This document shows, in pieces, positions 10,892-20,233 of a stretch of DNA of 49,843 nucleotides. The translations under genes and the position numbers were made by a program. Within the stretch, counting starts at the first letter, position 1. Each line of letters begins with the position of its first letter. The DNA comes from Flavobacteriales bacterium (lineage in GTDB: Bacteria > Bacteroidota > Bacteroidia > Flavobacteriales_F > PHOS-HE28). Below the pieces are notes generated by a model. That model had not been told where the DNA came from and made no database searches. It was given only the letters and a program-made list of their open reading frames with translations. Where the stretch lies: NCBI GenBank assembly GCA_023382455.1, contig JAHDVX010000024.1, positions 1-49,843 of the forward strand. Direction: 5' to 3'.

Positions 10892-11604
10892 TCCCCTTCC
10901 TACTGGTGATGTTGCCGCTGGCCCCGCTGCATGCGCAGGACGCGGACCGCGCGCTGCGCAAAGGCAACGCCGAATACCGCGCCGGCCGCATGCAGGCCGC
11001 CGAACAGGCCTACTCCCTCGCGGAACAGGATGAGCGCGGCATGTTCAACCTGGGCAACGCCCTTTTCCGCCAGGACAGCATTGCCGACGCCGCCCGTTCC
11101 TATGAGAATGCCGCCTCCATGGCCAAGACCCCGGAGGCCCAGGCACGCGCCTACCACAACCTGGGCAACACCTGGATGAAGCAGAGGAATTACGCGGAGG
11201 CCGTGAATGCGTACAAGGAAGCCCTCAAGCGTACGCCGAGCGATGGGGACACGCGCTACAACCTGGCCTATGCCCAGAAGATGCTGGCCCGGGAACAACA
11301 GCAGCAACAACAGCAGAACGGGGACAAGAACAAGGACCAGAACAAGGATCAGGACGGCCAGCAGAACAAGGATCAGGATAAGGAGCAGGACAAGGATGGC
11401 CAGCAGAAGCAGGATGGCCAACAGGACCAACAGCCCCCGAAGCAGGACCAGGGCGACAAGGGCAAGGGGCAGGAACAGCGCATCGACCCGCAGGACGCGA
11501 AGCGCATGCTCGATGCCGCACAGCAGCAGGAAAAGGACGTGCAGGAAAAGGTGCGCCAACTGATGCTGCCCAAACCCAAGCAACCCGCGGAGAAGGATTG
11601 GTAA
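10879..11604 (+). CDS. batC: BatC: TPR protein with a D/K/Q-rich low-complexity tail
   Basis: Exported TPR protein, 241 residues from the ATG at 10879; a TTG at 10861 is in frame but less likely. The signal peptide is about 1-20 (MERLIPFLLVMLPLAPLHAQ). TPR-like repeats occupy about 24-135 (for example FNLGNALFRQ and YHNLGNTWMKQRNYAEAVNA). An extreme low-complexity segment of Gln, Lys, Asp and Asn (about 139-199, with repeated DGQQ and NKDQ blocks) is followed by a short helical end (KRMLDAAQQQEKDVQEKVRQ). The start overlaps the batB end by 13 nt and batD follows after 1 nt. Likely a periplasmic scaffold for Bat proteins. Confidence 0.9.
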   Translation: MERLIPFLLVMLPLAPLHAQDADRALRKGNAEYRAGRMQAAEQAYSLAEQDERGMFNLGNALFRQDSIADAARSYENAASMAKTPEAQARAYHNLGNTWMKQRNYAEAVNAYKEALKRTPSDGDTRYNLAYAQKMLAREQQQQQQQNGDKNKDQNKDQDGQQNKDQDKEQDKDGQQKQDGQQDQQPPKQDQGDKGKGQEQRIDPQDAKRMLDAAQQQEKDVQEKVRQLMLPKPKQPAEKDW

Positions 11605-11605
11605 A

Positions 11606-13348
11606 ATGAACTTCCGCACCCTCATCACGGCGCTCTTCCTCCTGCCCGCCCTCCTGGTGCAGGCCCAGGAGATTTCCTTCCAGGCCCTCGTGGACCGCAA
11701 CGAGATCGCCACCGGCGAGGCCTTGAAGCTCACCATCGAGCTGACCAACGCCAGCTCTGCCGGCAACATCAACGCACCGGACCTGGGCGGCCTGGCCGTG
11801 CTGCAAGGCCCCATGCAAAGCAGCAACTTCTCGAGCATCAACGGCCGGATCAGCCGATCATCCTCCATCTCCTGGTACCTCACCGCCACCCGGCCCGGCA
11901 CCTACACCATCGGCGCCGCCACGGTGCGCGTGGGCGGTGGCGTGCTGCAGACCGAGCCGCTCACCATCAAGGTGACCCAGGGTGCTTCCTCCAGCGGCAC
12001 CAGCGCCGCCGCGGAGCAGGCCCAGAAGCGCGACCCGAACCTCTTCTGCACCATCACCCTCAACAAGAACAAGGCGTACGTAGGCGAACAGATCATCGCC
12101 ACCTACACCCTCTACTCCCGCTACAATTCCTTGCGCTCCTTGGAAAGCGAGATGCCCAAGCTCAACGGCTTCTGGGCCGAGGACGTGGAACTGGAAGGCA
12201 ACTGGGAACCCGAGCTGCGCACGGTGAACGGCTTGCGGTACCGGGTGGCCACGCTCAAACGCCAAGTGCTGATCCCCCTCCACAGCGGCACGCTCACCCT
12301 GGCCCCCATGACCTTGAGCTACCTGGTGAACGCGAGCATCTTCAACAGCGGCACCACCGTGACCATCCAGAGCGGGGCCACCGAGGTGAACGTGAAGGAG
12401 CTGCCCCCCGGCAAGCCGGCCGATTTCATCGGTGCCGTAGGCGACCTGCAGTTGGAAGTAAAGACCGCCAACACCGAGGTGAAGGCCAACGAGGCCATCG
12501 ACCTCAACATCCGCTTCTCCGGCCGCGCCAACCTCAAGCTGGTGGATGCCCCCACGCTCAACCTGCCGCCCGGCTTCGACAGCTACGACCCCAAGATCGA
12601 CGACCAGATCACCGTGAACTCCTCCGGCATGAGCGGCAGGCGCGAGTTCCAGTACCTGTTGATCCCCCGGCACGAGGGCACGTACGATCTCGGCGCACTC
12701 TCCTTCAGCTACTTCGACCCCTCCTCCGGGACCTACAAACAATTGCGTTCAGGCGAGATCACCTTCCACGTGAAGCCCGGCGATGGCGGAACCGCTACCA
12801 ATGGCGCTCCCGCCAAGGTGGACGTGCAACGCCTGGGGTCCGACATCCGCTATATCCGCACCGGCGACCTGGACCTGCAGCCCAAGGGCAAGCACCTCTT
12901 CGGATCGCTGGCCTATGTGTTGGGCATGATCGCCCCGCCGCTGCTGCTGTTGCTGTTCTTCCTGTGGAAGCGCAAGCGCGATGCGTGGGCCGGAGATGCC
13001 GACCTGCAACGGCGCCACGGCGCGGACCGGGCCGCAAGGCAACGCCTGGCGTTGGCCGCCAAGGCCCTGGAGAAGGATGATCGCGAGGCCTTCCATGATG
13101 CGCTGGGCAAGGCCCTGGAAGGCTACTTCGCCGATAAGTTCAACCTGGGCGTGGCCGAGGTGAACGCCGCCATGATCCACCAACACCTGGACGCCATGGA
13201 CGAGGGCCGCACCGCCAACGAGCTCATCGCCATGATCGCCGATGCCCAGATGGCTCGCTTCGCCCCGGTGGAAGGCAAGCCCCGCAAACAGGCCTATGAG
13301 GAGGCCCGCGCCATCATCCACCGCATCGAAACCCGGCACGGAAAATGA
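11606..13348 (+). CDS. batD: BatD: membrane protein with BatD-type beta domains
   Basis: A 580-residue BatD-family protein. Signal peptide MNFRTLITALFLLPALLVQA, several immunoglobulin-like beta domains (about 22-400) with the hallmark early strand ISFQALVDRNEIATGEALKL, one transmembrane helix at about 431-453 followed by KRKRDAW, then a helical cytosolic tail (about 465-580). The tail region resembles that of the DUF4381-like protein earlier in the operon. It starts 1 nt after batC and overlaps batE by 4 nt. Function within the aerotolerance system is known only genetically; no catalytic residues are evident. Confidence 0.93.
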   Translation: MNFRTLITALFLLPALLVQAQEISFQALVDRNEIATGEALKLTIELTNASSAGNINAPDLGGLAVLQGPMQSSNFSSINGRISRSSSISWYLTATRPGTYTIGAATVRVGGGVLQTEPLTIKVTQGASSSGTSAAAEQAQKRDPNLFCTITLNKNKAYVGEQIIATYTLYSRYNSLRSLESEMPKLNGFWAEDVELEGNWEPELRTVNGLRYRVATLKRQVLIPLHSGTLTLAPMTLSYLVNASIFNSGTTVTIQSGATEVNVKELPPGKPADFIGAVGDLQLEVKTANTEVKANEAIDLNIRFSGRANLKLVDAPTLNLPPGFDSYDPKIDDQITVNSSGMSGRREFQYLLIPRHEGTYDLGALSFSYFDPSSGTYKQLRSGEITFHVKPGDGGTATNGAPAKVDVQRLGSDIRYIRTGDLDLQPKGKHLFGSLAYVLGMIAPPLLLLLFFLWKRKRDAWAGDADLQRRHGADRAARQRLALAAKALEKDDREAFHDALGKALEGYFADKFNLGVAEVNAAMIHQHLDAMDEGRTANELIAMIADAQMARFAPVEGKPRKQAYEEARAIIHRIETRHGK

Positions 13349-18970: not shown

Positions 18971-19047
18971 CGGGGGGGTAGCGCCGTCCGGCTAGCGTTT
19001 CCCGCCTCCCTTCGGCTCCGCTCAGGGTGGCGGGATGGTGGCAGGTC
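18971..19047 (+). repeat. tRNA-Pro-like repeat A with a palindrome in place of the anticodon arm
   Basis: The 5' part (18971 to about 18999) follows the acceptor strand and D-arm of the real tRNA-Pro, with a few changes. At 19000-19035 a 36-nt palindrome sits where the anticodon arm should be, followed by a GGCAGG block similar to the T-arm start. The downstream spacer, with GATTGCAGTTCTGGTGGCAG and then CTTTGGAAATACAGTTC, leads directly into the true tRNA-Pro at 19094. The start-to-start distance is 123 nt. No functional tRNA can be formed. Confidence 0.75.
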
Positions 19048-19093
19048 GGGATTGCAGTTCTGGTGGCAGGGAAGGTTCTTTGGAAATACAGTT

Positions 19094-19168
19094 CGGGGTG
19101 TAGCGCAGTCCGGTTAGCGTACCTGCTTTGGGAGCAGGGGGTCGCAGGTTCGAATCCTGCCACCCCGA
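19094..19168 (+). tRNA. tRNA-Pro (UGG anticodon)
   Basis: 75-nt cloverleaf: acceptor CGGGGTG pairs with CACCCCG and discriminator A; D-arm GCGC...GCGT; anticodon arm CCTGC-TTTGGGA-GCAGG (19122-19138) with anticodon TGG; variable loop GGGTC; T-arm GCAGG-TTCGAAT-CCTGC. The 3' CCA is not encoded. It is embedded among three tRNA-Pro-like repeats. Confidence 0.96.
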
Positions 19169-19234
19169 CAAATGAAGGGGTCATGGATAGGCATGGCCCC
19201 TTTTGCGTTCAATGAACAGGCCGGTCAACGGCAA

Positions 19235-19310
19235 CCAGGTGTAGCGCAGTCCGGTCAACATATCCCGCCTCCCTTCGGCTCCGCTCAGGGTGGCGGGAGG
19301 GTCGCAGGTC
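19235..19310 (+). repeat. tRNA-Pro-like repeat B with a palindrome in place of the anticodon arm
   Basis: Degenerate acceptor (CCAGGTG), then TAGCGCAGTCCGGT matching the tRNA-Pro D-arm, the same 36-nt palindrome at 19263-19298, the exact variable loop GGGTC and T-stem start GCAGG, then divergence into the spacer also seen after repeat A. The spacer (19311-19356) is almost identical to that before the true tRNA-Pro, with one base difference noted around CAAGGAAGG versus CAGGGAAGG. Confidence 0.75.
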
Positions 19311-19356
19311 GGGATTGCAGTTCTGGTGGCAAGGAAGGTTCTTTGGAAATACAGTT

Positions 19357-19445
19357 CGGGGTGTAGCGCAGTCCGGTTAGCGTATCCCGCCTCCCTTCGG
19401 CTCCGCTCAGGGTGGCGGGAGGGTCGCAGGTTCAAGCATACCCGT
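19357..19445 (+). repeat. tRNA-Pro-like repeat C: exact tRNA 5' half, palindrome instead of anticodon arm
   Basis: Positions 19357-19384 are identical to the first 28 nt of the real tRNA-Pro (acceptor, D-arm, base 26). The 17-nt anticodon arm is replaced by the 36-nt palindrome (19385-19420). The variable loop and T-stem start (GGGTCGCAGGTTC) then resume exactly. The T-stem 3' side is lost, and a weak acceptor remnant ATACCCG follows. The replacement falls precisely on the boundaries of the anticodon arm. Confidence 0.8.
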
Positions 19446-19703: not shown

Positions 19704-19744
19704 AAGCGAACGCCTCACGAAAGTGGGGCGTTCTTGCATGCGGC

Positions 19745-20233
19745 CATCCGCCGAAGCTTGCTTCGAGGCGGGTGGCCGCATGCAAGAACAGGGCTGCGTG
19801 GCGGCCGTTCGCTTTGAAGCCTCCCCCAATAGGGATAGCGCGAATCCGCCGCCAGGCGGAGAGCGCAATCCCCTCCGAAGCTTGCTTAAAGGCGAATGTC
19901 CCGAATGCAGAACCCGGCCGTGAAGCGGCCGTTCGCTTTGAAGCCTCCCCCAATAGGGATAGCGCGCCTCGCGCAATCCCCTCCGAAGCTTGCTTCGAGA
20001 CGGGTGGCCGCACGCAAGAACAGGGCCGCGTGAAGCGGCCGTTCGCTTTGATGCCTCCCCCAATAGGGATAGCGCGCCTCGCGCAATCCCCTCCGAAGCT
20101 TGCTTCGAGACGGGTGGCCGCACGCAAGAACAGGGCCGCGTGAAGCGGCCGTTCGCTTTGATGCCTCTTCGCCTCGCCGTGGCCATGCGGAGGCGTGCCC
20201 CCCAATAGGGATAGCGCGCCTTGCGCAATCCCC
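19745..20233 (+). repeat. 110-bp tandem repeat array with nested palindromes
   Basis: Four consecutive units start at about 19745, 19874, 19982 and 20092; the shared block GTTCGCTTTGA recurs at 19807, 19931, 20041 and 20151. Each unit ends in a palindrome GGGATAGCGCG-CCT-CGCGCAATCCC (for example 19957-19981). In the first unit the palindrome loop is replaced by another palindrome, TCCGCCGCCAGGCGGA (19845-19860). In the last unit a segment of about 31 bp with CGCCTC...GAGGCG ends (20168-20198) is inserted. Open frames here, on either strand, only translate the repeat and show no protein family. With its flanks this fills the gene-free stretch between tRNA-Ser and the thiolase. Confidence 0.85.

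Follow-up and report, generated by a model that had tools for sequence, protein, structure and literature searches.

Hairpin-swapped tRNA copies beside working tRNA genes in Bacteroidota: candidate satellites of small GIY-YIG-linked mobile elements

Transfer RNA genes are classic landing sites of mobile DNA, and most of the elements known there rely on the 3′ end of the gene and on an integrase; insertion of an integrative element at an att site within a tRNA gene leaves a working tRNA and, at the far end of the element, a tRNA fragment. Free-standing homing endonucleases of the GIY-YIG type, SegB among them, occur in the T-even phages (PMC2988022; PMC13096335). In phage T6, tRNA genes are cut internally by SegB, which promotes the amplification, in tandem, of the segment that carries the tRNA and segB, and the 5′ end of the tRNA shares microhomology with the 3′ end of segB (PMC13096335). 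A literature search, conducted mostly outside subscription journals, returned no prior description of bacterial GIY-YIG genes at tRNA genes or of tRNA copies in which an arm has been replaced.

The window considered here, a stretch of 49,843 nt from a Flavobacteriales bacterium (contig JAHDVX010000024.1), carries a functional tRNA-Pro(TGG) gene surrounded by three tRNA-like copies, termed satellites A, B and C (Table 1). The original prediction, that an identical 36-nt palindrome stands at the anticodon-arm place in all three, was borne out by the sequence and a repeat finder: the palindrome (TCCCGCCTCCCTTCGGCTCCGCTCAGGGTGGCGGGA) occupies the segment from base 26 to the variable loop, the place of the 17-nt anticodon arm in the tRNA. 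Identity of the first 28 nt of satellite C with nucleotides 1-28 of the tRNA was confirmed as well. Identity to C amounts to 92% for satellite A (74 nt compared) and to 96% for B, and a 147-nt duplication that spans the locus has its right edge precisely where the anticodon arm begins. ARAGORN and Rfam both pass over the three satellites, in none of which the cloverleaf with anticodon that marks a functional tRNA is recognized; the Rfam matches are real tRNAs only, with no Rfam family for the satellites. As with tRNA-integrative elements, one working tRNA is left together with a tRNA fragment; unlike those elements, the units here and in relatives measure only ~76-460 nt, those read by eye carry either a GIY-YIG open reading frame (ORF) and no integrase or no ORF, and the arm of the fragment is a hairpin. 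Within the 17-21 kb region of the window, a search for a GIY-YIG ORF at the tRNA-Pro(TGG) locus found none. A strong inverted repeat with 23-nt arms (96%) lies at 19730-19789 of the window, right behind tRNA-Ser(GCT).

Table 1. Features of the tRNA-Pro(TGG) locus, with positions in the window
Feature	Position	Strand	Basis
Functional tRNA-Pro(TGG)	19094..19169	+	ARAGORN; Rfam RF00005, 69 bits
Satellite A, "upstream type": tRNA-Pro-like 5′ half, 36-nt hairpin, variable loop and T-stem start; 3′ part lost	18973..19046	+	Sequence, repeat finder
36-nt palindrome of A, at the anticodon-arm place	19000..19035	+	Sequence; core at 19009-19026
Satellite B: tRNA 5′ half, hairpin, variable loop and T-stem start	19238..19309	+	Sequence, repeat finder
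36-nt palindrome of B	19263..19298	+	Sequence; core at 19272-19289
Satellite C: 28-nt tRNA 5′ half, 36-nt hairpin, variable loop, broken T-arm	19357..19431	+	Sequence comparison
36-nt palindrome of C: TCCCGCC/GGCGGGA (the recurring hairpin) around a loop that holds the REP-like core	19385..19420	+	Sequence; relatives' hairpins without core
REP-like core (TCCCTTCGGCTCCGCTCAGGGT) in hairpin loop of C; also elsewhere in the genome	19392..19413	+	Pattern search
147-nt duplication, left member (A, spacer, tRNA 5′ half); right member (B, spacer, C 5′ half) at 19238-19384	18975..19121	+	Repeat finder, 93% identity

On comparison with its relatives, the 36-nt palindrome is a composite, in which a recurring hairpin of about 18 nt, TCCCG-N-CGGGA, harbors another palindrome (CCCTTCGGCTCCGCTCAGGG) within the loop, since in species of the same genus the copy 5′ of tRNA-Pro(GGG) consists of TCCCGCC, a short loop and GGCGGGA, with the inner part absent. 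The 36-nt unit of the original prediction is therefore real in A, B and C, but what recurs is its ~18-nt hairpin. The core (CCTTCGGCTCCGCTCAGG) is found three times in the window against 0.07 expected from shuffles and, within two mismatches, at 13 places in the genome (reversed control, 0), five of which are tRNA-linked copies, the rest having no tRNA flanks and lying in some cases within genes. Within a hairpin loop it occurs in the window genome and in one relative (G031), there twice, once in the opposite orientation. Like the Rickettsia palindromic elements (RPEs), the core is also present inside genes with the frame apparently open, although sequence and phylum differ, and we know of no RPEs that act as arm replacements in tRNA duplicates. 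Two places where the core sits in a reading frame without obvious break are G000:C1 ~235269 (L038; peptide PFGSAQG, DNA polymerase III alpha-like) and G000:C8 58223 (L039; peptide ALGSAQG, Ile-tRNA synthetase-like).

Short GC-rich palindromes are also typical of REP/REPIN sequences and their RAYT (Y1) genes, and the dispersed palindromic core in the hairpins of the window is alike in this respect. It had been suggested for this locus that a REP-like element targets anticodon hairpins, which would have a palindrome of this kind moved by a Y1/RAYT transposase. Consistent with such an origin are the dispersed core in the hairpin loops of the window genome and G031, the genome-wide count of ATCCCGCY-N-RGCGGGA, which far exceeds that of the reversed control, and one RAYT gene, in G005, that the hairpin adjoins. 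However, a PF01797 search with a scan of the flanks for the TCCCG hairpin (as distinct from the CCTTCGG core) placed it near only ~3 of the 33 Y1/RAYT loci of the genus, and in relatives the arm is substituted by a hairpin of about equal length, not merely interrupted. The satellite hairpin thus differs from REP/REPIN sequences in that it takes the place of a tRNA arm and is not generally found near RAYT genes, being linked to GIY-YIG genes instead, and of the suggestion only the involvement of a REP-like core stands; we consider movement by a RAYT transposase unlikely. A different, CTTCCCGTTAGGGCCGGGAACACTGGC-like palindrome near three RAYT-type genes of the genus (L414, L421, L430) looks like their own REP. 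Across the genus the TCCCG hairpin is present in roughly 0-19 copies per genome, many of them at tRNAs. Because dispersed hairpins and terminators also occur in the genus, the hairpin alone is not diagnostic of a satellite; the tRNA flanks are.

Two further loci of the same genome carry such copies. On contig C18, tRNA-Pro(GGG) (11546-11620) is preceded by copy D and followed by copies E and F. Copy D joins the 5′ half of the local tRNA, the palindrome with one base changed and the local variable loop; its halves match tRNA-Pro(GGG) and not tRNA-Pro(TGG), so that the same hairpin stands in two different tRNA backgrounds. Between this tRNA and copy E lies a GIY-YIG remnant with an internal deletion. 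On contig C22, an upstream copy of tRNA-Val(TAC) has the 18-nt form, TCCCGCTTTCAGCGGGA, at the arm position. The alternative of a scattered palindrome without tRNA flanks, with the copies of the window as one-off duplications, is thereby only half supported: the core is indeed scattered, but the unit of tRNA and hairpin recurs at these two loci and widely in relatives. Tandem repeats are error-prone in assemblies, and copy E abuts a run of N; nevertheless, the same structure is seen in many independent assemblies, cultured isolates included, and an assembly artefact or one-off local duplication is very improbable. Elsewhere in this genome, one GIY-YIG gene lies directly 3′ of the tmRNA gene (G000:C2:78272, L183) and another (L182, C27) adjoins tandem TGTCAGTCCGAGCGCAGCC-type repeats.

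The swap extends well beyond this genome. Over the loci analyzed, a match to a tRNA half was obtained at 80 distinct hairpin places (the 5′ half in 49, the 3′ half in 18 and both in 13), the hairpin fitting precisely into the interval from base 26 to the variable loop, upholding the earlier view that the swap follows arm boundaries and does not stem from random decay. The hairpins measure 15-21 nt, with the single exception of copy D (36 nt). Their sixth pair is complementary in 80 of 80 copies (C-G in 65, A-T in 15) and the inner stem pairs covary; the constancy of the outer five bases, which belonged to the search pattern, is partly by construction, and the apparent constancy of the motif as a whole is biased, most copies having been found through it. 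In the genus, satellites were detected with an RNA model and hairpin patterns at tRNA-Pro(GGG), Pro(TGG), Val(TAC), Val(CAC) and Arg(TCT), the RNA model of the copy returning strong copies in many species; among relatives at large, the tRNAs concerned include Pro, Val, Thr, Arg and others. A search of 45 genomes for the hairpin between tRNA-like flanks gave 54 places with a first pattern, ~40 of which were judged to be tRNA satellites on reading the loci (few matches in the reversed control), and 22 with a second (G at base 26), for which the control gave about as many chance matches and only tRNA-adjacent matches count.

In the phylum sample, 12 of 395 genomes match, these belonging to 12 genera, with none in the reversed-pattern control, and here too the inner stem pairs covary. 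Among the matches listed in a scan of named genomes are Perlabentimonas gracilis, Agriterribacter humi, Sediminibacterium soli and Flaviaesturariibacter flavus, as well as members of Taibaiella, Flammeovirgaceae and Flavobacteriaceae. A class-wide search with the RNA model was dropped as evidence of spread; it returned mostly ordinary tRNA-Pro genes, and the real tRNA-Pro of the window genome itself scores 44.6 bits with that model. Many named-genome matches in Actinobacteria, Proteobacteria, Archaea and other groups have no tRNA nearby and were set aside as chance. Hairpin-bearing tRNA copies were also seen outside the Bacteroidota in a Lentisphaerae MAG (L359; Thr(CGT) with a GIY-YIG ORF) and a Roizmanbacteria MAG (L296; Arg(TCT)), which could reflect transfer or binning errors.

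Satellites sit beside a functional tRNA and come in two forms: in upstream copies the leader and the 5′ half remain and the 3′ part is gone, while in downstream copies it is the 5′ part that is gone, the 3′ half and the terminator remaining. Arrays occur on either side: G066 has four upstream copies and G028 at least four, and in G005 four downstream copies follow one another at a 122-nt period. In G655 one copy is an almost complete hairpin-tRNA that retains the two acceptor strands; in most copies half of the acceptor stem is missing, and in many the T-loop is broken. The T-arm is also replaced in some copies, in one Chitinophagaceae genome and in G167 again by TCCCG...CGGGA. Nor is the swapped segment always exactly the anticodon arm: at L123 (G125) a hairpin, TCCCGCTAAGAGCGGGA, lies between the anticodon loop and the T-stem, one segment further on, and its flanks are the same in both the upstream and downstream copies. 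The presence of satellites is patchy even between close species, and their number and side vary. In G023 and G026, for example, the DNA just 5′ of tRNA-Pro(GGG) is similar; in G023 the 5′ half runs on into the normal arm, and in G026 into a hairpin right after base 26, followed by a second 5′ half. This difference is consistent with a single unit having been inserted at the arm, or having been lost when the repeated 5′ halves recombined.

At tRNA-Pro(GGG), the promoter and the tRNA are separated by the upstream copy, which at least eight species share in well-conserved form, and GCGGGACAAG right before this tRNA is retained even where the hairpin has changed. Together with the covarying inner stem, these features could indicate a functional tRNA-derived RNA, the satellite serving as a leader or decoy that regulates the adjacent tRNA, in line with the earlier idea of a tRNA-shaped RNA with a new function. 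That idea finds little support, given that most copies, short of an acceptor-stem half and often with a broken T-loop, are unable to form a cloverleaf and belong to no Rfam family, while the patchy presence and the varying copy number and side also argue against it, and the association with nuclease genes is better explained by mobility. A regulatory RNA is possible for the tRNA-Pro(GGG) leader; as a general explanation, in view of the patchy occurrence, it is quite unlikely. A AATGCGGGACAAG-like motif 6-8 nt 5′ of tRNA-Pro(GGG) is kept across species of the genus despite a complete change of the hairpin (L108, L109, L114, L156, L157, L167 and the tRNA-Pro(GGG) copies of the genus).

At many loci and in different families, a GIY-YIG ORF starts or ends within ~60 nt of the hairpin. 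These small ORFs (PF01541; roughly 70-110 aa) often lie between the working tRNA and the satellite, and the residues of catalytic type (Y..Y.G, R, E) are retained in those of relatives. In the phylum sample, where genomes were chosen by the hairpin alone, 8 of the 12 hairpin-bearing genomes have one at the locus; several satellite loci have none. The ORF and the copy can be closely interlocked: in G015 the stop codon (TAG) of the GIY-YIG gene lies inside the D-loop of the downstream copy, and Perlabentimonas carries three tandem units of 456 nt, each comprising a GIY-YIG ORF, the hairpin, a 3′ half and a terminator. In a tree of 58 GIY-YIG sequences, the label "hairpin-linked" requires four changes against a mean of 18.5 after shuffling (as low in 0 of 500 shuffles), and 21 of the 24 unlinked sequences fall into a separate supported group. 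The hairpin-linked proteins thus appear to form a group distinct from the others of the genus, although the tree rests on 90 columns and its details should be interpreted with caution. GIY-YIG genes stand beside tRNA genes in relatives, the tRNA being their putative target.

The resemblance to SegB lies in the placement of a GIY-YIG gene at tRNA genes; here an ORF may run as far as the D-arm of a tRNA copy, where it stops, and its units may be repeated in tandem. Read from the sequences, this likeness has its limits: the present genes are found in bacterial chromosomes, have ORFs of roughly 70-110 aa and are set apart from the phage system by the dead tRNA halves with a conserved hairpin at the position of the anticodon arm, a hairpin that is spread over many tRNA types.

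Much of this could also arise if tRNA genes were duplicated passively by ordinary recombination, the dead transcribed copies were selected to lose their anticodon arm (and T-arm), and GIY-YIG genes settled in a spot where they are tolerated. The copies do retain halves of the local tRNA and terminators, the T-arm is broken or replaced in many of them, and free-standing GIY-YIG genes are also found beside tmRNA and other tRNAs. Independent neutralization, however, would not be expected to yield the same TCCCG/CGGGA at different tRNAs and in different families, nor does it sit well with the distinct group of hairpin-linked GIY-YIGs, and we give passive duplication a small but real chance.

The arm-exact swap, the two architectures, the tandem arrays, the GIY-YIG domain with its linkage and the presence or absence of copies between related species are all seen directly. 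We suggest, with a probability of roughly 60%, that the copies are satellites left by small, homing-like, tRNA-dwelling mobile elements of the Bacteroidota that are linked to GIY-YIG genes, their movement and cleavage being what we infer from these patterns. A full element would comprise one or two TCCCG-N-CGGGA hairpins that replace the anticodon arm of a dead tRNA half or halves, together with an intact copy of the same tRNA; autonomous members would add a GIY-YIG endonuclease gene abutting the hairpin. The nuclease would break a tRNA gene, and repair from a homologous, element-bearing tRNA would insert or multiply the unit without loss of the one working tRNA; the hairpin might be either the conserved end of the element or a form of the site that the nuclease is unable to cleave. 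Such behavior has a precedent, as phage SegB, likewise a GIY-YIG enzyme, makes cuts within tRNA genes and brings about the amplification of tRNA and segB in tandem. The window would then hold GIY-less derivatives at tRNA-Pro(TGG), further elaborated by a 147-nt tandem duplication and, within the loop of the hairpin, by a REP-like palindrome that is dispersed in the genome.

Several points count against a homing-like origin. The intact tRNA keeps its anticodon arm, although an element-bearing locus would have to escape its own nuclease; only the hairpin and the GIY-YIG gene look foreign, because the tRNA halves of the satellites match the local tRNA; the GIY-YIG gene is missing at the window locus and at several other satellite loci; and the swap at L123 lies off the anticodon arm. 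More tentatively, and somewhat short of an even chance, the homing-like elements may be undescribed minimal mobile elements spread across the phylum, with a palindromic TCCCG...CGGGA end at the anticodon-arm position, an intact copy of the occupied tRNA that they carry along, by which the host stays alive, and a dedicated group of very small GIY-YIG nucleases that drives them, their non-autonomous forms multiplying as tandem satellites.

Hairpin-swapped copies complicate the annotation of tRNA genes, and elements of this kind could account for many of the tRNA fragments and small GIY-YIG genes of the Bacteroidota that so far have no explanation. If the proposed origin is true, the nuclease-linked replacement of an arm in a dead copy, with a live copy kept beside it, would represent a new way to parasitize an essential gene.
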